Under the pieces are notes generated by a model. The model was not told the DNA's origin. It searched no databases and saw nothing but the letters and a program-made list of their open reading frames with translations. A stretch of DNA of 64,000 nucleotides, taken from Dictyophora rubrovolvata (Eukaryota; Basidiomycota; Agaricomycetes; Phallales; Phallaceae). The translations under genes and the position numbers were made by a program. Within the stretch, counting starts at the first letter, position 1. Every line of letters starts with the position of its first letter. Positions 22,239 to 41,007 of this stretch are shown in pieces. The stretch lies in NCBI GenBank assembly GCA_029959195.1, contig CP114122.1, forward strand, positions 1,054,001 through 1,118,000, written 5' to 3'.

Positions 22239-25200
22239 ATGGCGACAACAGCGACACTTTCTTCACACTCCCATGTTCACCCGCATGCACATGCGCATTC
22301 GCTAGGTCAGACAACAGCTTCATCAGCTTCCGCTGCTGCTGCAGCAGTGGTAGCAGCCGCAGCAGTCACTGCCTCTGCGGCAGTGAACAATAACAACAAC
22401 AACAGCAACAACGATCCCGTCGCCGGACTCGGTTTCAAACACCGTTACATCCCACCGACAGACTACCTCCCCGTCTTACCCAGCTCATTCTTCACCTCCC
22501 TCCCCAAATCCAAAACGACCAACTCCGGCACCGGCACACTCGCACCCGTCTTTCAACACGCTCAGGCTCAACAGTCCATCCGACGAGATCACAATTTCTC
22601 AAAGGGCTATACAATGTCTCAACGGCCTACTTTCACAAGTTATCATCACCCCGGTGCGTCCGCCGTTCAGCGATACCGCTCCGCTTTATCCGAACGTCCT
22701 CATTCGATTGATGAACTCGCTGAAATTGCGAAATTCGCTTTATTACCCGATACGGAATTCGACGATGATCTTGTCCTTGGTTTAGAGTTTAGCGAGGTTT
22801 ATTTGAAAGAGGCTATTTTGGATCATGAACTCGGGGACGTGGAGATGGCTTTTGTGAATTATGCGAGGACGGTTACGATGGTTTCGAATAAGATTCCGTC
22901 TCATCCTATGTTTATGAAGTTGAAGGAGAGTCATAGAGTTAGATGTGCTGCTGTATGTTTGGTTTCTCTCAACAGTAATATTCTATTATCTCTGACTTTT
23001 TTTTTTCTTTTCTTTTTTTAGAGGGGCGATAAATGTCTAGCCCAAATGGACCTGTTAAAACCTCTCATCGTGGAACGGTACGAATCCTGGCGCATAGAAA
23101 ACCCGCACTTCCCTCTCCCACTCGCATCATCTCATTCCGCATTACCGACCACACTCGATTTACAGCGGATTATGAGTATAATGCAACGGAGGGACGACGA
23201 GGAGTATGAGGAAAGGGAGGAGTCGTATGAGGTTAAGATGAGGAAACAGCGCGTGGAGAGGTTGATGATGCAGAAGAGGAGGGAGAGGAGGAGTGCTGTT
23301 AGTGCTGCGTTGGGCAATTTGAGTGCGGGTTTGGGGTTGGGGTATGGTGGAAGTGGTGGTGGTTTACCTTCGCCGCCGAAGAAGACGAAGGAGGGGAAGA
23401 CGACGACGACGCCGTCGCCGAAGAAGCATTTGGCGGGGCAGCAGCATTTGCAACAGTCCCCGCAGAATGCGGTACAACAACAACAGCAGGCTCAGGCTCA
23501 GGCTCAGGTTCAGGTTCAGGCTCCAACACAAGCATACAAGGCTTCGCCTAGTCATTCAGCGTATTCGTCAACAGCTACAACAAGCGGGAGCGGACATAGT
23601 CGAAGTCAATCTGAAGATTATCAAACTCAGCTTCGAGAGCGGGAGAAAGAGAGGGAGAGGGAACAACAACGGGAACAACAACGGCTTCGTGAGGAAGTTG
23701 CGAGACATCGGTTGGAGCTTGAGAAACAGGAGACGAGGAGGAGAGAAGAGGCTGAGGCTGCTGCTGCGGCTGCTGCGAAACGTAAAGCTGAGGAAGAAGA
23801 AGCGGCTGCGGCTGCGGCGATGCGGAGGAAGGCTGAGGAAGAGAGGGAGGCTTTTGTTGTTGCTGAGCAGTTAAGGAGGGAGCAGGAACGACGACGGTTG
23901 GAGGATATTGCGTTGAAGAAGAAGGCGGAAGAGGAGAGGAGGAGAGCGGAAGATGAGAAAAGGCTTGAGGAGGCAAGGAGGAGGGCGGCGGTGGAAGAGG
24001 AGGAGAGGAGGAGGGAAGAAGAGAAGAGGCTGAAAGAGGAGGTGGCCGCCGCCGCCGCTGCAGAGGAAGAGAGAAGAAGAAAAGAGCTGGAGGCGCGGCT
24101 AATTGAAGAGGCGAGGAGGAGACAACAGGAAGAGGCGGCGGGAGCTAGAAAACGCGCAGAAGAGGAAGCTGCTGCGGAAGCTAAACGAAAAGCTGCTGAA
24201 GAGGAGGCCGAGATTCTACGGAAACAGGAACGACAGCAGGAGATTTTGAGACGTCGGGCGGAGGAAATTCAGGAGGCGAAGCGGAGGGAGATGTCGCGTG
24301 AACAGCGTGAACAAGAAGCGAATAGTGCGCGTGGGGTTGTTGCTCATCGATCATCGCATTCTTTGTCTCAATCTCAGTCGAGCTCGCAATCTCAGTCTCA
24401 GTCGAGTTCGCAATCTCAGTCTCAATCGCAGTCCTCCTCCTCGTCCCGTTCACCATCATACTCTTCAGATCTGACACAGTATACAAGACACGACGGTCTC
24501 CCTGTTCTACCGCTAGAGTCTCCTACAAAGATTGTCCCATCCGATTCAACACTCCACTCGCAGCCTAAACAGCCTACACCACAGGTAGCCGCCGTTTCCC
24601 GATCGAGCGGATCAGGCAAAGGGTAAGTTTTCACACGTCATTCTCTCTCTCCCTTGGAAGCTGTGCTGACGTTCACCTATATAAAAACACAGTCACTCTG
24701 CATCGCATTTCGCACCGATTACGACCACATCACCTGCACCTAAAGAAAGACCTGGACACGGGTATTACGGCTATTGCACATATCCTTCTCTAACTCTCCG
24801 CGACACCATGTCAGACCATCAACGCCAGCAGGGATATACACCTTCCCTCCAGTCCATGTTCTCACCTCCACTACCGGCACCTTCGACCGGTCTCTTGTTC
24901 GCTGCTAACCACCCGGAAGGTCCGAGCTCGAAAAACATTCCACAATCACCCGATCGTCCCCCCGCCCATGTTCGACATCTCTGGGCTATGCAGTCGGGCG
25001 AAGAGATGCCCGCCCGTCGGCCTTCTCCTTCGTCACGTATCATATTCACCGATCAGCTTCAAAAAGACGAGATGGAAGGTCTTTTAGGACCTGAGTTGCG
25101 AATCGTTCGAGTTCCGCTTCTCGTTATCGATAAGTTTTTGACAGTCGCGGCTGTTAATACTGCTAAACGACGTGAGACGTGTGGTATGCTCATGGGTCGG

Positions 25201-28593: not shown

Positions 28594-29570
28594 TTACGAC
28601 GAAAAAAGGGCTATAGCGGCGTTGATCTTAGACTGTAAATTTTGAGCGAGAGGTTCTTGCTGAGCTGCGATATCCTTCTCGGGGCAAAAAGAAAGGGCAT
28701 GAATGTGACTTGTCTACTGTTCCTCAGAAATAATCAGAAGCATACCAGGGGGAAATGGTCTTCGATGGCATTTCTGAATTTCTGGATAAATGAAAAGTCA
28801 TTAACCGCCATCGTCGTCGTCATCATCATCATTGAAAAGCTAAACTATCTTACCTGAAAGGCTTCACTGAGAGTCTGGAGCGACGCTTGGACTTTCGCAA
28901 GAAGGCCAGGGGTAGTGGAACTTGCAGTGTCGAAAACGATGTGCTGTTGAACGAGCGAGTTGACGGCGCTGTTAAGGCCAGTGTAGACCGGTATAATTTG
29001 GCCAGTCATGAGCTCGTCACTATCATTCTCGTTGAAAGGACCAGATGCCTTTGTTAGCACTAATCTCAGTTTTCTTTTTGACTTTTAGACCCAAGTTCGC
29101 TTACATTCATGTCCTCGGCTGTCTATTTCGTTGAATTGATTCAATTACATAGAAGCATTTTTTTTTTGGGGGGGGGGTAAAAATAGAGAGCGCTTCTTAC
29201 CTGCGTTGTGTCGTCTATAACAGTGGCAATTTGGGAGAGAATATCCTGAAATACAATGGAATTTGTAGAAAGCATATAACAACCTAAGTTGGTAAATAAA
29301 CGTACTGGTATATCTTGTTGATCTGTTTGTGAAAGTTTGCCAATAACGCTGTTGACAGAGACCTTATCCACGGAAAGAGTGGTTAGTTCATGTGTACTAA
29401 CTAGAAGAGGCGTAAGTGAGACTTACAATATCCTGACTCAATACACTAAGATCGCTAATTACACCCGCAGCGTCTCGTCGGATGGGAACATTAATGGGAG
29501 TTGCTAAAACAGCGGTAATGAAAGTCGTTGCGAAGAGTACAAAAGGACTCGGAGATTTGAAAAAGTGCAT
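28594..29570 (-). CDS. HsbA-like secreted protein, copy 1
   Basis: Small secreted protein resembling hydrophobic surface-binding protein A; Aspergillus HsbA coats hydrophobic surfaces and recruits cutinase. Signal peptide MHFFKSPSPFVLFATTFITA is followed by VLATPINVPIRRDAAG, with an Arg-Arg-Asp processing-like site typical of the family. The mature part is helical and Ser/Thr/Ala/Leu-rich: VISDLSVLSQDI, then GQIIPVYTGLNSAVNSLVQ, and the end KINAAIALFSS. Six exons splice cleanly to about 190 residues, with an intron layout identical to the three other copies. It is intact. Promoter and first intron resemble those of the other copies. The HsbA assignment rests on composition, size and the RRDAA motif, not on a search. 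Confidence 0.75.
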
Positions 29571-30752: not shown

Positions 30753-31295
30753 AACAACGACAACAACAACAACAACGGTACCGCCGGACTCGGTTTCAAA
30801 CACCGTTGGCACATTCCACCAACAGCCCACCCAGCTCATCCTTCATCTCCCTCTTGAAAACCAGGCACACTCGCACCCGTTCTTCAGCACACCCAAACTC
30901 AACCATCCGCCCGATGAGATTACAATTTCTCTGAAGGATACATAGGGTCCGGTCCGCTGTCCAGCGATACCGTTCTGCATTGTCGAAACCTCCTTATTTG
31001 ATCGATGGACTTAGGGAAATTGCGGAAACTCGCTTTATTACGGATCATGAGATTGAGATGGCTGTTGTGAGCTATACGAGGACGGTTATGGTGGTTTTGA
31101 ATAAGCTTTCGTCTAATATCCTATGTTTATGAAGTTGAAGGATTCGGAGAGTCATCGAGTTAGATGTGCTGCTGTATGTTGGTTTCTCAAGAATATGTTT
31201 TATTATCTCTGACTAATTTTTATAGGGGCGATAAATGTCTAGCCCAAATAGACTTATTGAAACCTCTTCATCGTGAAACGATACGAATCATGACA
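30753..31295 (+). pseudogene. Decayed fragment of the AMSH gene
   Basis: Corresponds to about 22385-23095 of the intact AMSH gene, same strand: an AAC-repeat stretch, then ccgccggactcggtttcaaa, parts of the USP8-dimerisation region, the first intron, and ggggcgataaatgtctagcc of exon 2. Several deletions and many substitutions make it noncoding. The intron is retained. Its parent lies about 8 kb upstream, while the parent of the adjacent CinA piece lies about 10 kb downstream, so two sources were joined here. Confidence 0.9.
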
Positions 31296-31859: not shown

Positions 31860-32858
31860 TTACAACGATTCGATAACGGTAGTAGTGGTGTTCAAGTTAG
31901 TAACTATATCCGTTAAAATAAGTCCTAGTTGTTCTTGCGCATCCTGTAGAGGAAAAGAGGCATGAATGTGAGTGACCAACGATCCTCAGAAATAATCAGA
32001 AACATACCCCGGAAAAAGCGGTTGGGATGGCCGCTACCATGCTCTGTAAAAAATTAAAAAGTCGTCGGCGATCATCATCATCATTAAGGATTGCTATTAG
32101 CAAGTTAAGCTATCTTACCCCAAAGGAGACTACGATTTTCTGGAGTGATGACTGGATGTCGGACGGAAAGTTAAAAGTAGAAGGGCTATGAGATAAATCA
32201 TGCAGAACGCTATCCTGTTCATTTAGCGCGGTGGGGATGTCGTTAAGGTTGTCGAAAAACGGTATGGCGACGTTAGTCACGAGTGATTGACCATCCCCAT
32301 CGGTGAGGTGGCCCAGCGCCTTTGTTGACATTAACCTCAGTTTTTTTTCCCCAGTTAAACCTCAAGTCCTCTTACAGTTAAGGTACTAGATATCTATTTG
32401 TTACGTTTCATAAAACATTTTTCTTGGACGAGAATAGGGGACATTTCTTACAACATCCATATTTTGTGCGACGGCTGTGAAATCGTCGAAGACATTCTGA
32501 GACACAATAAAATTCTTAGACAGCACAAAACAACCTAACTTGGTAAATGACTTACTTGTGTTTCCCCTTGATTCGAGGTTGAAGAAAGGCCTTGAATATC
32601 TGAGGTGAGATGTTGCTTATCCGGACGAAGAGTGAAAGGGAAGGGGGGGGGAATTTAGTTTATGTGTAAGAGGTAAGAGAGGCGTAAGTCGTAAGTGAGA
32701 CTTACGGCACTCGAACTTGCTGCAGTGAACAAGCTAGTTAGATTAGTAACGACAGCATCGTCGGAGTCTCGCCGAATGGGGACATAAAGAGGAGTTGCCA
32801 AAACAGCGGTGACGAAAGTCGTTGCGAGGAAGACAAAAGGAACTTTGAAAGAGTACAT
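31860..32858 (-). CDS. HsbA-like secreted protein, copy 2
   Basis: Second member of the secreted family. It begins MYSFKVPFVFLATTFVTAVL, a signal peptide, then ATPLYVPIRRDSDDAVVTNL. After splicing the product reads through QHLTSDIQGLSSTSNQ, NVFDDFTAVAQNMDV, NVAIPFFDNLNDIPTALNEQ, SMVAAIPTAFSG and ends NTTTTVIESL and a stop. The six-exon plan matches the other copies, including an intron 1 that ends in TCCGGATAAG. It appears intact. Exon sequence has drifted far from copy 1 although the signal peptide and RRD region are alike. Its promoter element is the least conserved of the four, with two differences. Confidence 0.75.
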
Positions 32859-32967: not shown

Positions 32968-34418
32968 AAAAGACCCTGAAAGTTCGGGATTTTACAGTCG
33001 ATGTCATGGTCTGATGAGACCGTGTCAGGGTTTGTCAAAATATAATGGCACGTTGTATGCGTCACCATACTTGCTTGGTTATTGCATAATGCGCAGTACA
33101 TGCGCATCTACTGCCGTAGATACCGGTCTTCACTGGCCGTCGTCATATCCCAGTAGATTGGTCTGTGATGGTCTGCAATGTACACCGTCATCCAATGAGC
33201 AAGGAACGGTCGTGTTCCCCGCCATTGTTTATTTTTAAAATTTAGTACGCATTGCTGGGTATTAGTACACAGCACATTGCACATGTTAAAGGGTTGATGA
33301 TGCGCCGGGAGGGTGTTTGAGGGAGAGCTGCCACCTGGATGTCGGTTTGGTGGACTGTAGGAGCCTCAACACTGATTTGGGTCGATAACGTGACTCCGGG
33401 AGGTGCAGGGGGAATTCCCTGTTTAATGATGGTTTTTAATGCACTAATGTTTTTAATAAATCAAATAGTTTTCAGCATAGATACATACTATATGCAGTAT
33501 AATTCACACTTACCCGGTTGGATCTTGACCCTCGGTGAGAATAGCTTGTTGAAGGTCTTCTACTGCCCTTTCTCTACTATTTTAGAAGTGGCAGCAGTGC
33601 CTGAAGGTGGTGCACTGGGTTGGCTTCAAGTGGAACAAGGTTGACGAGGCATGGTTGTTGTGGAAAGCTGTTTTCACTGTTTTTCATACTTCATTGGAAC
33701 ACAATATTTTTTTCTTAAGTCCGGACAACCCGAGCCTGAGGATGTGGACTAAAATTGGATTGTATTTATTATTAATTTACATTTAAAATCATTATTTATC
33801 ATCGACTTCCAATAATGGCCATCGCTGGCCATCGCTGGACACTGGGTCCGTCAGTAGATATTAACGTATGTAGTCCGCTTTGCGATGCAAGGGTGTGGCG
33901 GTATCCGACTATGTTTAGACATATCACACTTTATGATGGAGTGAACGTTCAACAGCCGTTCACCATGGTTTCAATTTTGGGTCTTAGTCTAGTTAGGTGT
34001 GGGCTATTCTTCCGTGTCTGGCCAAACTCGGAAGTGAGTGGGAACACAACTTGTAATAATCAGTCAACTAATATCATCCTATCGAGGTTTGACGGTATTG
34101 TTCTCCACTATAGATATGTGCAGTGATCAGTGAGCCGGGGCTGATGAAACCGGATGCAGGGTCGAATGACACTGTAAAATGGTGGGACATCGGACACCCA
34201 ACTCAGATATGTGTCCGTCATTGATCAACGGTCAGGTCACCGCTCAAATTTAAATATGACCGTATGACTGTGCCAACGTAATCCCTAGATTGCACAGCGT
34301 CATGGACAAGAAAACAATGGAAAAAAATATTGAGCATCACCTTGACACACCGCATCTCTCACTAGCACTGCTCAGCCCCGGGCAGTATGGTCTTTGCGCC
34401 GAATTGTTAGGGTGTTTT
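32968..34418. other. Spacer between head-to-head HsbA copies 2 and 3
   Basis: Frames near 33339-33644 and 33815-34126 show no family features. The last 170 bases before 34418 resemble the region upstream of HsbA copy 4 (shared text such as aaatatgaccgta, ggaaaaaaatattgagca and acaccgcat), so the duplicated unit includes upstream sequence. Confidence 0.5.
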
Positions 34419-34434
34419 GCGTATAAAAGTCGAA
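34419..34434 (+). promoter_or_regulatory. Shared TATA promoter element, HsbA copy 3
   Basis: GCGTATAAAAGTCGAA, identical to copies 1 and 4, about 105-120 bases upstream of the ATG. Flanking sequence (tcatatttc and a following ccatagt/ctatagt motif) is also shared with copy 4. Confidence 0.8.
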
Positions 34435-34537
34435 TCATATTTCGAATCGTCATACTATAGTTCCCCCTCTTCTCCATACCACAGTCCTCCCTTTTTTTAT
34501 CATCATCAATTTCTTGATTATCCTTGTTCATTTAAAC

Positions 34538-35509
34538 ATGCGCTTTCTCAGAGCTCCTTTGATACTCCTCGGAACCATTTTTGTCATCACTGTTTCAGCA
34601 GCAAATTTCACTGGGAACGCTACACTCATACATATTGATTATAATGGAATGACTGCGGATGTCGTAAGTCTCGCTTCCGCCTCTATTGTTACATATGAAC
34701 TAACTTCTTTTTTCTTCCCCTTTCACACTCTGTCCGGATAAGAAAACTTTCAAGGATGTTATTGAGGGTATTGTAGATGATAATCAATCGAGTTCAGTAA
34801 GTTGCAACTTGGGTTGTTCTGTACTCTTTCTACAATGGCACTGTGTTTCAGCTAAGTCAGTCATTCTTTGCCGCTTTCGGAGCCCTCGTGGCCAACATGG
34901 TGCAGGTAAGAAGGCCCCCTATTCTCAAAAAAAAAAGTTTCTATGTAATTGAAACAATGTAACAAATAGACAGGCGAAGACATACATGTAAGAGAGCTTA
35001 GGTTTTACATAAAGGAGGAAAAGAAACTGAGGTCCATATCAACACAGACGTTCGGTCCCTTTGATGACGCGAATTGTGATGCACTCGTGGCCACCCATGT
35101 CTTACCGGTTTATGGCGACCTTAACGGGACCCTCAACGTGTTGACACAAAAGATACCCGTTTTTCATGGGTTTCTAGACGTTCCTAACTTTGCATCAGAA
35201 TTCGGGTCATTACTCGGAGAACTCCAAGTTGGCACGGAGGTAAGAAAGCACAGCTTGCTAATAGGAATGCTTATTTAAACAATTGCCGATTTACTTTTCG
35301 GTTTTACAGCAGATGGTATCTGCCATCCAAAGCGTTTTTACCGCGGTATGCTTCTAATTATTTCTGAGGAACACTGGACATTCACATTGATTTGCTCCCC
35401 ATAGGACGCCGTAGCTCAGCAGGCAGCTGGTGCTCAAAGTCTATGGAAAGCCTTTGACGCCGTTAATTCTGCTGCTTCCCCACTTTTGGCCTCTAGCCTT
35501 GATAGCTAA
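34538..35509 (+). CDS. HsbA-like secreted protein, copy 3
   Basis: Begins MRFLRAPLILLGTIFVITVS and continues AANFTGNATLIHIDYNGMTADV, with a signal peptide and likely N-glycosylation sites. Later exons give KTFKDVIEGIVDDNQ, LSQSFFAAFGALVANMVQ, HVLPVYGDLNGTLNVLTQ, QMVSAIQSVFTA and a final exon ending SPLLASSLDS and a stop. It has six exons and no disruption. The RRDAA site of copies 1 and 2 is missing; the mature N-terminus is different. Several introns are nearly the same as in copy 4 while the exons differ strongly. Placement in the HsbA family is by structure and exon plan. Confidence 0.72.
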
Positions 35510-35699
35510 TTCCCTTGTTCCCTTGCATGTAATGCTAGGCCTCTACCGGCCATCTAATTTGCTCCCATATGCTATTTATTTTTGTTTGTATACGTGGATC
35601 TAGTCTTAAACTTGTCATTTCAAAACTCATGCATCTAGTTCAGATTAGACAATGCCTGTAAACGACTCCTCATTACCAGACTCTTACCCTGTGTGTGTG
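35510..35699. repeat. 3' flank of HsbA copy 3 with (GT)n run
   Basis: This is the 3' flank of the gene, unlike the 3' flank of copy 4. A short GT microsatellite (about 35689-35706) marks the border to the helicase remnant. Confidence 0.5.
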
Positions 35700-36270
35700 T
35701 GTGTGTTTTTATAATCTCCCTATTGAGGGTCTCGAGCTTCTCGAATATTTGCAAATCGTGGCTGGCTTCCAGCATGAACAGCTTCCGGTCAAAATCCCGC
35801 AGAATGCATGTGTACTCTCGCGTCCTAGATCTCGACAGGGCGACATACGTGTTGAAAGTCGTGAGGGTTCCCGATGTCGGTTTCGTAATGTCGACTAATA
35901 GGGGCTCTGCGCTTGCACTTCATAGTCAGTGAAGGCGTATGCCGGCATTATATATGGGATATTGCACTCGATGCACGGTTCGCTTCCTTCCCGGCTCCTC
36001 GTCAATGGAAATGGACATGTGAATGGGAAAACATCCTGTTTGTAAACCGGGTAAGTTTTCTTTAAGGGGTACGTCTGGTCTGAATACTAAAACGACTGGT
36101 TGGTATTAAAGCCTGTGGTTTACTAAAGACTGTGGTTGGGAATGACGGGCTCTCGCGGGTCGAGTATTATCTGTTCGAGCGATCCCATTGTACCATTTGC
36201 GAGGTGGGCGTCCACGCAAACGTTATGCGTTAACAACGAATGCATTCCATCGAAAATTTCTATTTCCTAA
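35700..36270 (-). mobile_element. Helitron/PIF1-type helicase C-terminal remnant A
   Basis: The minus strand, in shifting frames, carries text typical of the C-terminal end of PIF1-like helicases encoded by fungal Helitrons. Pieces are HLANGTMGSLEQIILDPREP, then IMPAYAFTDYEVQAQS, the variant of the TDYxxQGQT motif, then LTTFNTYVALSRSRTREYTC and ILRDFDRKLF. Several stops and frame changes interrupt it, and the N-terminal Walker motifs, Rep domain and element ends are not seen. This is a rolling-circle DNA transposon remnant or a host PIF1-like copy; I cannot tell which from this fragment. Confidence 0.65.
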
Positions 36271-36483
36271 GGTAGCTTGATGGCAGATGCTCCGCTAACT
36301 CCTGAGAAAGAAAGAGCACTTGGAAAAAAGAGAAGACTATACTGAGTTTGTACTGCGTTGCTAGTCTACATGTCTTTGGCGTAATTGTTTAGAATAAACT
36401 GAAGTTTCGAATGAATGCCAGTGGAGTCATTTGAATCCCAACGAAAAGCGTGCATGCAAGGAATTTGGCGCTACGCGCCCCTA

Positions 36484-36716
36484 GTAGTTTACTCGGAGCA
36501 CTTGAAGTATAAACTCGAGTAACACTAATGTACCATACCTAAAGCATAAAAGCTAGATACTCAACAGGCGTCGTCGTTGTAAGGCATATAGAAATTATCC
36601 TGCTTCACAAGGGACATTCCATTTTGTCGATTGAATTCAACATACACTTTGACTTCAGAGAATAAATCTCACTAAACTTTAACCCAAGCACAAGATCATC
36701 ATTGGGATTCACATCG
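36484..36716 (+). repeat. Orphan copy of an HsbA 3' end and 3' flank
   Basis: Similar along its length to about 39924-40176, the last codons and 3' flank of HsbA copy 4. Shared stretches include aaactcgagtaa, ggcgtcgtcgttgtaaggca, tttgacttcagagaataaa-like text, cactaaactyt and aacccaagcaca. No HsbA exons precede it, so the rest of that copy has been lost or was never copied. It ends where the AMSH fragment begins. Confidence 0.85.
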
Positions 36717-36893
36717 GCGAGTTTTGCAATTTCCTTTAAGTTCATCAATCGAATGAGGATGTTTCAACAATGCAGAACGGTATCGCTGGACAGCGGACCC
36801 TGTGTGCCCTTCAGAGAAATTGTAATCTCGTCAGATGGATGGTTGAGTTTGGATGTGCTGGAGAACGGGTGTGAGTGTGCCTGGTTCTTAGGA
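36717..36893 (-). pseudogene. Second, inverted AMSH fragment
   Basis: On the minus strand this resembles the 5' part of the AMSH gene (about 22540-22735) and is closer to the fragment at 30753-31295: both share ggtatcgctggacagcggac (as read here) and a contracted stretch before it. Matching text includes ttcatcaatcgaatgagga and cagagaaattgtaatctc. It is noncoding. The close match to the other fragment suggests that one was copied from the other or both from a common copied intermediate. Confidence 0.85.
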
Positions 36894-37213
36894 CAGGGAA
36901 ATAATCAGTTTCTATATATTCCCTTGCAGCATGCAAGGGCTCACCGGCGCTCACCCACTGCACGTTTATTTGTGTATGTAGCCACCTTTCCTCTCATGGC
37001 GAAAGCGATATGTTCCTCTCTTACTTATCTATACGTCCTTCTACCTAGGTGTCGCCTCGTCGGCTGTGTAACCCTTTTGGAATGTGTACGTTATATTTCA
37101 TTGTACTGTTAACATAATAGAGCGTTCCTTCAAATTCTCTCTATCCATTGCCGCCAATTCAACGTCGAAGTGATGCAAACCGTTGTCCATAGGTTGGGTT
37201 AAATAACTTCGCG
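36894..37213. other. Spacer between AMSH fragment and helicase remnant B
   Basis: No recognised coding content; an open frame that spans the AMSH fragment on the opposite strand is a shadow. The word gcatgcaagggctc also occurs near 38515. Confidence 0.4.
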
Positions 37214-37640
37214 TCACATTCTTTCAGCAATCAGGTAAGTATCTTCTCGATTCTTGGATCTCGAAAGCACCACGTATGCGTTGAACGGCGTCAATCTTGC
37301 AATGGGTGGCTTCGCGATGTTGATCAATACCGCACTGATCGTTTGTCCTTGTCCTTGATAGTCTGTGAGAGAGTAGGCAGGTATGACCGTGAATTGTTTG
37401 TGATATATTATTATCTCAAACTCGGTGCGGTGAAACACTTTCAACGCTTCCACTGGAAGAAGGCCCTCATGTATGTGATTGAATCGTCTACCGTAGTCAT
37501 GATCGAGACAAAATAGAAGGAAAAATGCTTTGAATTTCAGGCGGTGATAGTGACATCTGTTCTCTATTGCAGGTTCTCGAGCATCCAACGTTCCAATGCA
37601 CCCATTTGCAAGATGTGATTCGCGCGATGTTGAATGTGAT
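37214..37640 (-). mobile_element. Helitron/PIF1-type helicase C-terminal remnant B
   Basis: A minus-strand frame of 124 codons reads AREPAIENRCHYHRLKFKAF, then FHRTEFEIIIYHKQFTVIP, AYSLTDYQGQGQTISAVLIN, IAKPPIARLTPFNAYVVLSR and SKNREDTYLI. This is the conserved end of PIF1-like helicases of fungal Helitrons, with an intact TDYxxQGQT and LTPFNxYVxLSRS. Upstream text with HLANGCIGTL is present in another frame. It is better preserved than remnant A and distinct from it, so two insertions or a duplicated one existed. No Walker motifs or Rep domain are visible. Confidence 0.7.
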
Positions 37641-38839
37641 AATGACGCGCACCCCCTCGAAAGGCTCTAATACACAAGGCAACTCCCATTTACTTGTCTT
37701 CTGTTGACCTCCCTTTCTTCCGCGATGAGAGCGTTCTTATTTTTGCTGATGTAGTCGTGACCCGGACATGCTGACGCGATTTTCCCTTTTTTTTCATCAT
37801 TTCTTTGATCCACGCCCCTGTACACCCTTTCTTGTTGTGATAAGGACAGCGTGGTTCCAAGGAGCAATATCGAAACCGACTTTGGACATTGTGCATATGT
37901 ATGTCACCACCTGCACCTGATCCGGAGTACGGAATGACTGAAGAACAGCGGGTACGCAGGTATCTCAAAGAAGTGAGTTATTCGAATCCCAACTTCATGA
38001 TAGATTTGCATGATGTGATTTTAGCTTTGGTATCGACCCCTTGCCATTGTATAAGAACAACGCATCCGTTCGACCTAAAGAGGTCTTTCACACAATGCGA
38101 AACTCCATAGTGCAAGTTCAATTTAACTGAGTGAACTACTTCATCGAAAGGGACAACGCGCAGTCTATAGTGGCCAAAATTGTTGACATCTGCATTCTGC
38201 GCGCTGGCCCGACCAGCTGTTTGGAAAGGAGGAATGTCTTGGAAGGTCCTATAACTCCCGAGAAGCAAGGGTCCCCTTCGAAAAAAAACGCGCTCCGAAT
38301 GACGTCTATGGATTGTTCTCGGTTAGTTCCCGCTGTAAAATGTGCTCAACTCATCGTAAGCCCCGTAAACCTTTACTGCGTGTGTTGTGAGGTGTACGGG
38401 TATCTGTACTGGTTGTATCTATGTGTTTCTTAATGGGTTGAGGATTATGATTCGCCCGAAGCGGTGCTTGAATTAGTATTATTCGTTTATTAAGGTTGTT
38501 TACATCTGGTACGGGCATGCAAGGGCTCTGGCGGCTCCCGGGACGCGGGACGCGGGACGCCTCATGCACGTGGTCTGTCGGTCACCGGCCACCGGCCACC
38601 CAGTCAATAATAAATTAAATATGACCGTACGGCTGTGTAATCCCTAGTCTTCTCATTGCACAACATCGTGAACAAGAAAACATAATTTTTTCTTATAGTC
38701 ATGCATAGTTACAGCACTCGCTGGGATACTCCCTTAGGCTTGCACGCCCCGGTGCCCGTACAATGGAAAAAAATATTGAGCATTACACACCGCATTTCTC
38801 GGCCCCGGGTAGTACGCCGAAGTGTCCATGTCAGGGTTC
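37641..38839. other. Spacer upstream of HsbA copy 4
   Basis: Open frames at 37690-37968 and 37889-38110 have no family features; they may belong to the decayed helicase element. From about 38570 onward the sequence matches the upstream region of HsbA copy 3, with an extra 100 or so bases near 38680-38765 absent from copy 3. Confidence 0.45.
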
Positions 38840-38855
38840 GCGTATAAAAGTCGAA
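38840..38855 (+). promoter_or_regulatory. Shared TATA promoter element, HsbA copy 4
   Basis: GCGTATAAAAGTCGAA, identical to copies 1 and 3, about 85-100 bases upstream of the ATG. Confidence 0.8.
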
Positions 38856-38937
38856 TCATATTTCAAATCTTCATACCATAGTTCTCCCTTTTTTTTACAT
38901 TATTGTTAATTTCTTAATTATCCTTGTTCATTTGAAC

Positions 38938-39947
38938 ATGCACTTTTTCAGACTTCCTTTGGTACTCCTCGCAACCACTTTTATCACCGCCGCTTTAGCA
39001 GACCCCACTGGCGTTACCGGGACCGCTGAATCCGTACTTCTTGATCTTGATGCAATGGGTGCGGCTGTCGTAAGTCTCGCTTCCGCCTCTATTCCTACAT
39101 ATGAACTAACTTTTTTTTCTCCCCCTTTCACACTCTGTCCGGATAAGGACACTCTCAATAGTATTATTGTGGATCTTCCAAATACTCCTCAAACGGTATC
39201 AGTAAGCTATTATTAACTTGGGCTGTTGTGTACTTTTTCTAATAATTTTGTGTTTCAGGCGGCTCAGACATTCTTTGACGCTTTCACAGCCGCTGTAACC
39301 GATGTAGTGCAGGTAAGAAACGCCCCCTTATTCTCAATAAAATGTTTCTACGTAATTGAAAAAACGTAACAAATAGACAGGTGAAGACATAGATGTAAGA
39401 GAGTTTGGGTTTCATATAAAGGAGGGGAGAGAACTGAGATCAATATCAACACAGACATTAGGTCCCTTCAACCAAAGCAATAGTGGAATACTCATGACCA
39501 ACCATGTCATACCAGCCTATGCCAGCATTAACAGTACTCTCAACTCGTTTACACAACAGATAAACGCTCTTGATGGGTTTCTAGACATTCCTAAATTTGG
39601 ATCAGATGTCCAGCTATTACTCGGACAATTCGAAAATGCCACTCAGGTAAGATAGCATAGCTTGCTAATAGGAATGCTTATTTAAACGATGGCCGATTGA
39701 CCATTTATTTTTACAGGCGATGGTATTTGCCATCGAAGACAAATTCGCCTCGGTAAGCTTTGATTATTTCTGAAGAAACGCTAAACGCTCACACTCATGC
39801 CTTTGCCCCCCCTCCCTATAGAATGCGGTGGCTCAGCAGACAAATATTGCTCAAAGCATACTGAGTAACTTTGGCACCACTTTCGCCTTTATTTCTTTCT
39901 TTTTGGCCTCAAACAATAATAGCTTACTCGAAGGATTTGAAGCATAA
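38938..39947 (+). CDS. HsbA-like secreted protein, copy 4
   Basis: Starts MHFFRLPLVLLATTFITAAL, a signal peptide, then ADPTGVTGTAESVLLDLDAM. Spliced text continues DTLNSIIVDLPNTPQTVS, AAQTFFDAFTAAVTDVVQ, HVIPAYASINSTLNSFTQQ, AMVFAIEDKFAS and a last exon ending SNNNSLLEGFEA and a stop. Six exons at the same positions as the other copies, with good splice signals; it looks functional. Compared with copy 3, introns 1, 3 and 4 are highly similar while exon 2 matches at only roughly 55-60 percent of bases by eye. The 3' flank is the source-like match for the orphan segment at 36484-36716. Confidence 0.72.
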
Positions 39948-41007
39948 ACTCGAGTAATACTAATATTAATGTACTGTACCTAAAGGATGAAAGTTAGATA
40001 GTCAACACTGGGCGTCGTCGTTGTAAGGCATATGGGATGGATTATACTGATTGGCAGGGGACATTCCTTTTTGTCGCTTGTATTCAATTAACACTTTAAC
40101 TTCAGAGAATAAACCTCACTAAACTCTCACCCAAGCACAGGATCATCATCGACTCTTGAGATCCACATCGGCTAATAAAGCAAGGAAATAGTGTGCTAAG
40201 AAGTTTTTAATGATGGTGGTAAGAGTGTGAAAAGTCCTCGAAAGAGCTGCAGTGGTGCCCCTCGCAAGTCCTCTAATTGTCAGGCTCAGGCTTCAACATC
40301 AAAAGGTCTTCTGTCCCTGTGGTACACTGGGAGATATGCATATTCTGAGACGACATGTATCGTGAAGGTAGTTTTTTCAGACATTTGAGAGATGATTGCC
40401 CTTCTTCCGCTGGCCTTTCCTCTTCTCCTATTTATAAGTCTCCATACAATCAATTATTAAATACTTTTCATTTCTTTCTTTGTTCTCAAATACGCTACGA
40501 TCTTTCTTTCCATTCCATTCTTAACCTATACCTATAATAAAGTTCGCTCTTAATTCCTCGGAACACTGGGAATCGCGCAATATCAATTTGTTTTTAGTCT
40601 AGCGGTGCGACGAGGGACCGGCCCGGGTACTGGGAATCCCTCGGCTTTGACGATATTTGAAGCTAGAAATACGCGCACCGACAGTTAAGTCGTCCCTAGT
40701 GTAGATGTCTAGCCTCTAGGTAGCCTTGTAGATAAGAGCTCGTGTCTGTAGTCCGAGGAATCTACACTCGACTGAGATCACTATAAATACATTGTACATA
40801 CAATCAAATACAGATAAGCCTAAGGTGAAAGCAAATTCTACCGTGAGCTTTGGCTGGATGCAAGGGAATGATTATAGGGTGATTGTTCAAGATTGACTAT
40901 ATAACCATCTGACAAAACCAGATTACACACACAAGCAGTGTGTACGAGAAGACCGGCCGGCCTATTTTAATGAGTTGCGGTCCGAAAGATGCCTGCGTCA
41001 TTCCATC
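39948..41007. other. Spacer between HsbA copy 4 and the CinA-like gene
   Basis: The first 230 bases are the duplicated HsbA 3' flank. The remainder shows no gene; the CinA-like promoter must be at its end. Confidence 0.5.

Follow-up and report, generated by a model that had tools for sequence, protein, structure and literature searches.

Introns more alike than mature exons in an HsbA-like gene family of a mushroom-forming fungus

HsbA proteins and other diversifying secreted families

Proteins with the HsbA domain (Pfam PF12296) include HsbA of Aspergillus oryzae, the Mp1p domains of Talaromyces and MoSVP of Magnaporthe. Known members are small secreted proteins, and A. oryzae HsbA is described as attaching to a polymer surface and recruiting a cutinase (PMC9394342). 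MoSVP is reported as an HsbA-domain protein that is needed for infection. In M. oryzae, one study places the hydrophobin and HsbA-like category among those without outliers in the ratio of nonsynonymous to synonymous substitution (dN/dS, or omega) (PMC4870811). Four HsbA-like genes, g1 to g4, lie in a 64,000-nucleotide stretch of Dictyophora rubrovolvata DNA (contig CP114122.1, positions 1,054,001 to 1,118,000; the whole stretch is called the window here), and they belong to a family that was followed through the whole genome. In the closest pairs of this family, introns diverge at about the rate of synonymous sites, as do the flanks of g3 and g4, while the nonsynonymous sites of the mature protein change 2 to 3 times faster.

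The likeness to known HsbA proteins is clearest in g1, which scores 41.9 bits against PF12296, passing the cut-off of 33.5, and has a seven-exon layout with an 18-base exon 4. Unlike it, g4 stays below the cut-off with 22 bits, and g2 and g3 have no match of their own to PF12296 at E up to 1. Kinship with HsbA was assigned because of the g1 score, the matches of 7 out of 18 family members at E up to 0.1 and the common exon layout. The family also departs from the known proteins in its size of about 35 units and its omega above 2, unlike the canonical HsbA pair of the same genome, which is under purifying selection. No hypervariable HsbA family is described in the titles and abstract openings of the open-licence literature, among the matches listed.

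In venom genes, it is the introns or the codons of the signal sequence that are preserved best. Conotoxins and other venom families combine a conserved signal sequence, a propeptide and a hypervariable mature region with duplication and positive selection (PMC3823881). The same architecture and selection pattern were found in the fungal family, in which dN exceeds dS in the mature region and a conserved signal peptide stands beside a hypervariable mature part, both marks of a diversifying family. Unlike venoms, the product is a fungal, cysteine-poor and predicted helical protein of about 190 residues.

The MSDIN genes of Amanita likewise occur in a mushroom both scattered and in clusters, and a core that diversifies lies between conserved flanks, although they encode short peptides; according to the MSDIN paper, neutral and positive change were indistinguishable because the cores could not be aligned (PMC10356791). 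This distinction can be tested in the HsbA-like family, unlike in MSDIN, because the introns serve as anchors. From smut fungi, which are basidiomycetes too, gene families that bear marks of positive selection have been reported, some of them with secreted products (PMC5811872). There the comparison is between species, whereas here it is between paralogues of one genome and averaged over the whole mature protein.

Divergence of introns, flanks and coding sites

The two most closely compared genes, g3 (34538..35509, forward strand, 194 residues) and g4 (38938..39947, forward strand, 203 residues), are spliced models; g3 has an open frame and a predicted secreted HsbA-like product. A first-pass annotation, made by eye from the letters, had claimed that their introns are more conserved than their exons, and in the four-gene alignment all introns are 0.820 identical and all exons 0.679, with exon 2 poorly matched at 0.611, as had been noticed. 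Intron 1 (34664..34742 in g3, 79 bases; 39070..39147 in g4, 78 bases) is indeed nearly identical, with 3 differences in 78 aligned positions (identity 0.962), and introns 2 to 6 reach 0.79, 0.81, 0.82, 0.86 and 0.63. The similarity noted for introns 3 to 5 and the promoter is borne out, the 5' flank of g3 (34314..34537, forward strand) differing from its g4 counterpart (38760-38937) at 24 of 175 positions. Intron 6 departs from the others, and its value varies with the alignment used, being 0.63 in this one and 44/58 = 0.76 in another. Joined introns are more alike than joined exons in all six pairs of g1 to g4.

The comparison of dN/dS with intron divergence that the first-pass annotation had proposed was carried out on this pair. 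Pairwise codon likelihood over 173 mature codons gave dN 0.674, dS 0.238 and omega 2.83 (likelihood ratio test statistic, LRT, 18.0; p = 2.2e-5 against 1). Divergence (K) of the trimmed introns is 0.216, and about 0.18-0.22 for introns overall. By the Kimura two-parameter distance (K80), the 5' flank has diverged by 0.155 and the 3' flank of the duplicated unit (36482..36718, forward strand; g4 counterpart 39917-40172, located by self-comparison) by 0.156, or 0.176 when restricted to bases past the g4 stop. Synonymous sites therefore change at about the rate of non-coding DNA, and replacement sites about three times faster. Among the changed codons 116 are nonsynonymous and 12 synonymous only, and codon positions 1+2 differ at 0.399 compared with 0.249 at position 3 (p = 4e-4). 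Neither synonymous or intron divergence at or above dN, nor conversion of introns only, was seen for g3 and g4, and the proposal of diversifying exon evolution came through this comparison well.

The family was traced by DNA similarity through the window's genome (28.2 Mb, 11 contigs) because a whole-genome Pfam search for HsbA gave 3 places, with no window gene among them; copy counts are accordingly lower bounds. Pair and codon counts used 23 intact copies (253 pairs), excluding 10 flagged models and C1_601, which lacks a signal exon of its own, and introns were trimmed by 6 bases at each end. The pattern of g3 and g4 extends to the whole set: trimmed introns exceed mature exons in identity in 253/253 pairs (means 0.754 and 0.505), and the mean for signal-peptide DNA is 0.816. 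Among four-fold sites with matching first and second codon bases, mature exons differ at 0.331, falling to 0.269 where both neighbouring residues match, and the signal peptide at 0.133. These values bracket the intron difference of 0.247, which places introns within the range of synonymous sites.

Using the intron tree, a single omega of 2.18 was fitted to 173 mature codons (p = 1.6e-34 against 1) and 3.08 to exons 3, 4 and 6 (33 codons, lengths hardly varying; p = 2e-17). An extra class with omega above 1 gave an LRT of 340 for the mature region and 109 for exons 3, 4 and 6; because of recombination and saturation, the sizes of these omega and LRT values are not to be taken literally. Twelve close pairs fitted singly all have omega above 1, with p < 0.05 in 7, and four of them have a dS of 1.10-1.16 times intron K. 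A cruder count of single-change codons, made over 11 non-overlapping pairs, gave 124 synonymous changes against 185.6 expected (p = 1.6e-8), and 6 of these pairs are significant alone. Both sets of pairs were chosen mainly for closeness, out of the 253.

A control is provided by two tandem canonical HsbA genes on contig 4, which have the seven-exon layout of the family, including the 18-base exon 4. Their pattern is reversed, with exons 0.716 and introns 0.484 identical and an omega of 0.22-0.37 by three methods, and the pair is under purifying selection. Because this pair, the sole control family, shows the opposite, neither the genome nor the gene layout forces introns to be more alike than exons.

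In the mature protein, mean hydropathy and variability each have their maximum at 100 degrees per residue, with values of 4.22 and 3.24 where null means are about 1 and neither is attained in any of 300 shuffles; hydrophobicity is also higher in conserved columns (p = 0.007). The pattern is consistent with amphipathic helices that retain their core and vary on one face. Searches of the Protein Data Bank (PDB) gave weak results, 37 matches at E up to 1, the best of them a designed coiled coil (E 0.0036); the uncharacterised protein 5J5K is matched over nearly the full length (E 0.078), and g1 had one match at E 1.3. With g4 as query, no relative was found among 321 protein candidates at E up to 0.1, and 18 of the 23 intact members, aligned and used together as query, retrieved 1 partial match of 102 residues, from a collection that may be poor in spliced fungal proteins. 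Likeness to known HsbA proteins suggests a putative lipid- or surface-binding scaffold.

The N-terminus, conserved and hydrophobic by eye, is a predicted signal peptide, and 15 of 23 copies, g3 and g4 not among them, carry a dibasic site in residues 21-40 that is likely a Kex2 propeptide site. The DNA of the signal peptide (first 60-70 coding bases, e.g. 34538-34600 and 38938-39000) has a synonymous rate 0.52 of the intron rate, and its third bases often persist despite a residue change (V/A/I as GTC/GCC/ATC). Purifying selection at the protein level is not seen on its 21 codons, with an omega of 1.74, and 59 single-change codons include 12 synonymous ones against 17.4 expected. These data suggest constraint at the DNA or RNA level, or homogenisation. 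Signal-peptide DNA weakly tends to be shared within a contig, at a level attained in 7% of permutations, which hints at homogenisation of the 5' end.

Diversifying selection and its alternatives

The highly probable explanation is that diversifying selection acts on the exposed face of the predicted secreted, helical proteins, in a family that turns over as copies recombine and decay. Each protein would consist of an export signal, in most copies a propeptide processed at the dibasic site, and a helical bundle that retains its core as selection repeatedly replaces the exposed face. The pressure could be exerted by a partner that itself changes, for instance a molecule of a host or competitor, or a recognition partner of the same species.

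Several results weigh against this explanation, and some of them favour a rival in which the introns are the unusual part, held similar through gene conversion or a role in regulation or splicing, with exons drifting neutrally. By the method of Nei and Gojobori (NG86), dS is above trimmed intron K in 253/253 pairs (median dS 0.694, median intron K 0.291), and dN is above dS in no more than 212/253; in the tree model mature dS amounts to 1.6-1.8 times the intron rate, and in 8 of the 12 fitted pairs dS is 1.43-3.37 times intron K. The near-identity of intron 1 in g3 and g4 points the same way. Five of the 12 fitted pairs and 5 of the 11 single-change pairs are not significant on their own, and g1/g4 has an omega of only 1.14, or 0.82 in exons 2-6. 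Distant alignments are saturated, recombination violates the assumption of one tree, and all tests compare paralogues of one genome. Saturation and misalignment may inflate dS over the introns, and a mild constraint or real slowdown of introns is possible.

Intron conservation as the whole explanation is nevertheless clearly improbable. It predicts omega near 1, whereas 2 to 3 is observed, and the excess of dS over intron K almost vanishes in the four cleanest pairs. The flanks of g3 and g4, which are not introns, are equally slow, four-fold sites of the signal peptide are slower than introns, and rate variation along introns is rather small (gamma shape 2.8). Intron and mature-exon trees have 10/20 splits in common, where label shuffles give 0.23 on average and 2 at most, and one conflict between the trees is well supported. 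Relative to the expectation from their exons, copies of the same contig have introns that are farther apart rather than closer (r = +0.23), which indicates that introns are not being evened out locally. The first-pass annotation had offered gene conversion or a regulatory role as reasons for the alikeness of introns; the former finds no support in these results, and the latter is not needed in the closest pairs but keeps some ground family-wide, where introns are somewhat slower than synonymous sites.

An artefact, in which relaxed or pseudogenised genes, misaligned exons or exon exchange mimic an omega above 1, could draw on the 10 flagged models out of 34, one clear chimera, a local block of differences in exons 5-6 of C4_673 and C4_675, and mature proteins below 30% identity in 211/253 pairs. 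Relaxation yields an omega of 1 at most, however, and exons 3, 4 and 6, of near-constant length and with little alignment freedom, have a higher omega than the mature region as a whole. The excess at codon positions 1+2 over position 3 in g3/g4, and a variability that tracks helix geometry, also make this account highly improbable. The frame is kept as well, the lengths of exons 2-6 being divisible by 3 in 166/170 cases compared with 64/204 introns, an outcome that the models favour. A mutation process aimed at exons, for example via spliced RNA, would raise exon change without selection and would agree with exons being faster than introns in every pair and with dS above intron divergence in many. 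It is barely conceivable, as synonymous sites are not raised in the cleanest pairs, signal-peptide codons of the same exon are slow, and positions 1+2 of g3/g4 outpace position 3.

Such diversifying selection would point to a conflict at the molecular level in a mushroom-forming fungus, played out on a helical scaffold with hardly any cysteines. Omega averages above 2 over the whole mature protein and dozens of paralogues, with neutral clocks inside the data (introns, flanks, synonymous sites), and such an average is unusual; a slow control with equal gene layout accompanies the fast family in the same genome. Introns more alike than exons may also be a practical sign for spotting such families in unannotated fungal genomes. 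A bolder version, rather unlikely as a whole, is that an HsbA helical bundle was turned into a venom-like hypervariable repertoire for secreted recognition. Gene-wide positive selection would act on one helix face, crossover through alike introns would use them as hinges between exon modules, and signal-peptide DNA would be held at the nucleotide level, with competitors, hosts or conspecific non-self as the target.

Gene models, neighbouring features and family turnover

The remaining window copies, g1 (28594..29570, 191 residues) and g2 (31860..32858, 198 residues), lie on the reverse strand and have the seven-exon layout of g3 and g4; each of the four spliced models has 7 exons and 6 introns, all phase 0 and GT..AG. 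The exons of g3 are 34538-34663, 34743-34796, 34852-34905, 34970-34987, 35048-35239, 35310-35345 and 35405-35509, and its introns after the first are 34797-34851, 34906-34969, 34988-35047, 35240-35309 and 35346-35404. For g4 the exons are 38938-39069, 39148-39201, 39259-39312, 39377-39394, 39455-39646, 39717-39752 and 39822-39947, with later introns at 39202-39258, 39313-39376, 39395-39454, 39647-39716 and 39753-39821. Exon 4 has 18 bases and intron 4 has 60 in both genes. This intron (34988-35047 and 39395-39454) is open in frame, yet it was modelled as an intron because its counterpart in g1 and g2 has 56 bases and breaks the frame, and its borders recur across the family. All models were based on homology and splice signals, without transcripts, by a script that preferred phase-0, stop-free exons.

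A TATA-like TATAAAAGTCGA lies upstream of all four genes (29640, 32953, 34422 and 38843), exact in three and with 1 mismatch in g2. The exact form occurs 3 times in the window, every time ahead of an HsbA-like gene, and a looser form with up to 3 mismatches is found upstream of 28 of 34 copies, a count without a chance control. About 970 bases without a g4 counterpart lie between the g3 stop and the 3' flank. An open reading frame at 37214-37666, between g3 and g4, presumably resembles the tail of a PIF1/Helitron-type helicase. Partial copies of a gene near 22-24 kb adjoin HsbA-like genes (22389-23089, 30859-31292 and 36717-36886), as if fragments had moved or been captured.

Genome-wide, the family has at least 35 units: 16 on contig 1 (within 0.40-0.91 Mb), 7 on contig 6 (within about 76 kb, including g1 to g4), 4 on contig 4, 2 each on contigs 5, 7 and 11, and 1 each on contigs 3 and 9. 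Seven-exon anatomy was modelled for 34 of the 35, with an exon 4 of 18 bases in 33 and 17 in one; C1_701 and three fragments (C5_266, C1_564 and C1_571) were left unmodelled. Flags for splice-site, start, stop or frame changes fell on 10 models and 24 are free of them, C1_600 being flagged solely because its last exon continues into the next unit. At L040 and L070 (contig 1, 600-602 kb), the last exon of one copy has no stop and continues into a second unit that has no signal peptide of its own, an arrangement suggestive of a fusion gene with two domains.

Copies recombine and decay, and the family turns over. From intron 3 onward C1_731 (L073, contig 1, about 731 kb) is 0.94-1.0 identical to C1_698, and upstream of that it is nearer to C1_786 (intron 2 at 0.98); it is a chimera of a C1_786-like front and a C1_698-like rear, with the switch around exon 3. 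C4_673 and C4_675 differ at 21/36 bases in exon 6 and also at the end of exon 5, compared with 0/144 in exon 1. L067 (contig 11, 1391 kb) is a damaged copy in which both lost donor sites read AT for GT and a TGA stop lies in exon 1; these G:C to A:T lesions resemble those that repeat-induced mutation or deamination produces. Contig 11 of the same genome has 17 STE3 matches at about 5 places; together with six KDZ transposase matches, they would fit an agaricomycete.

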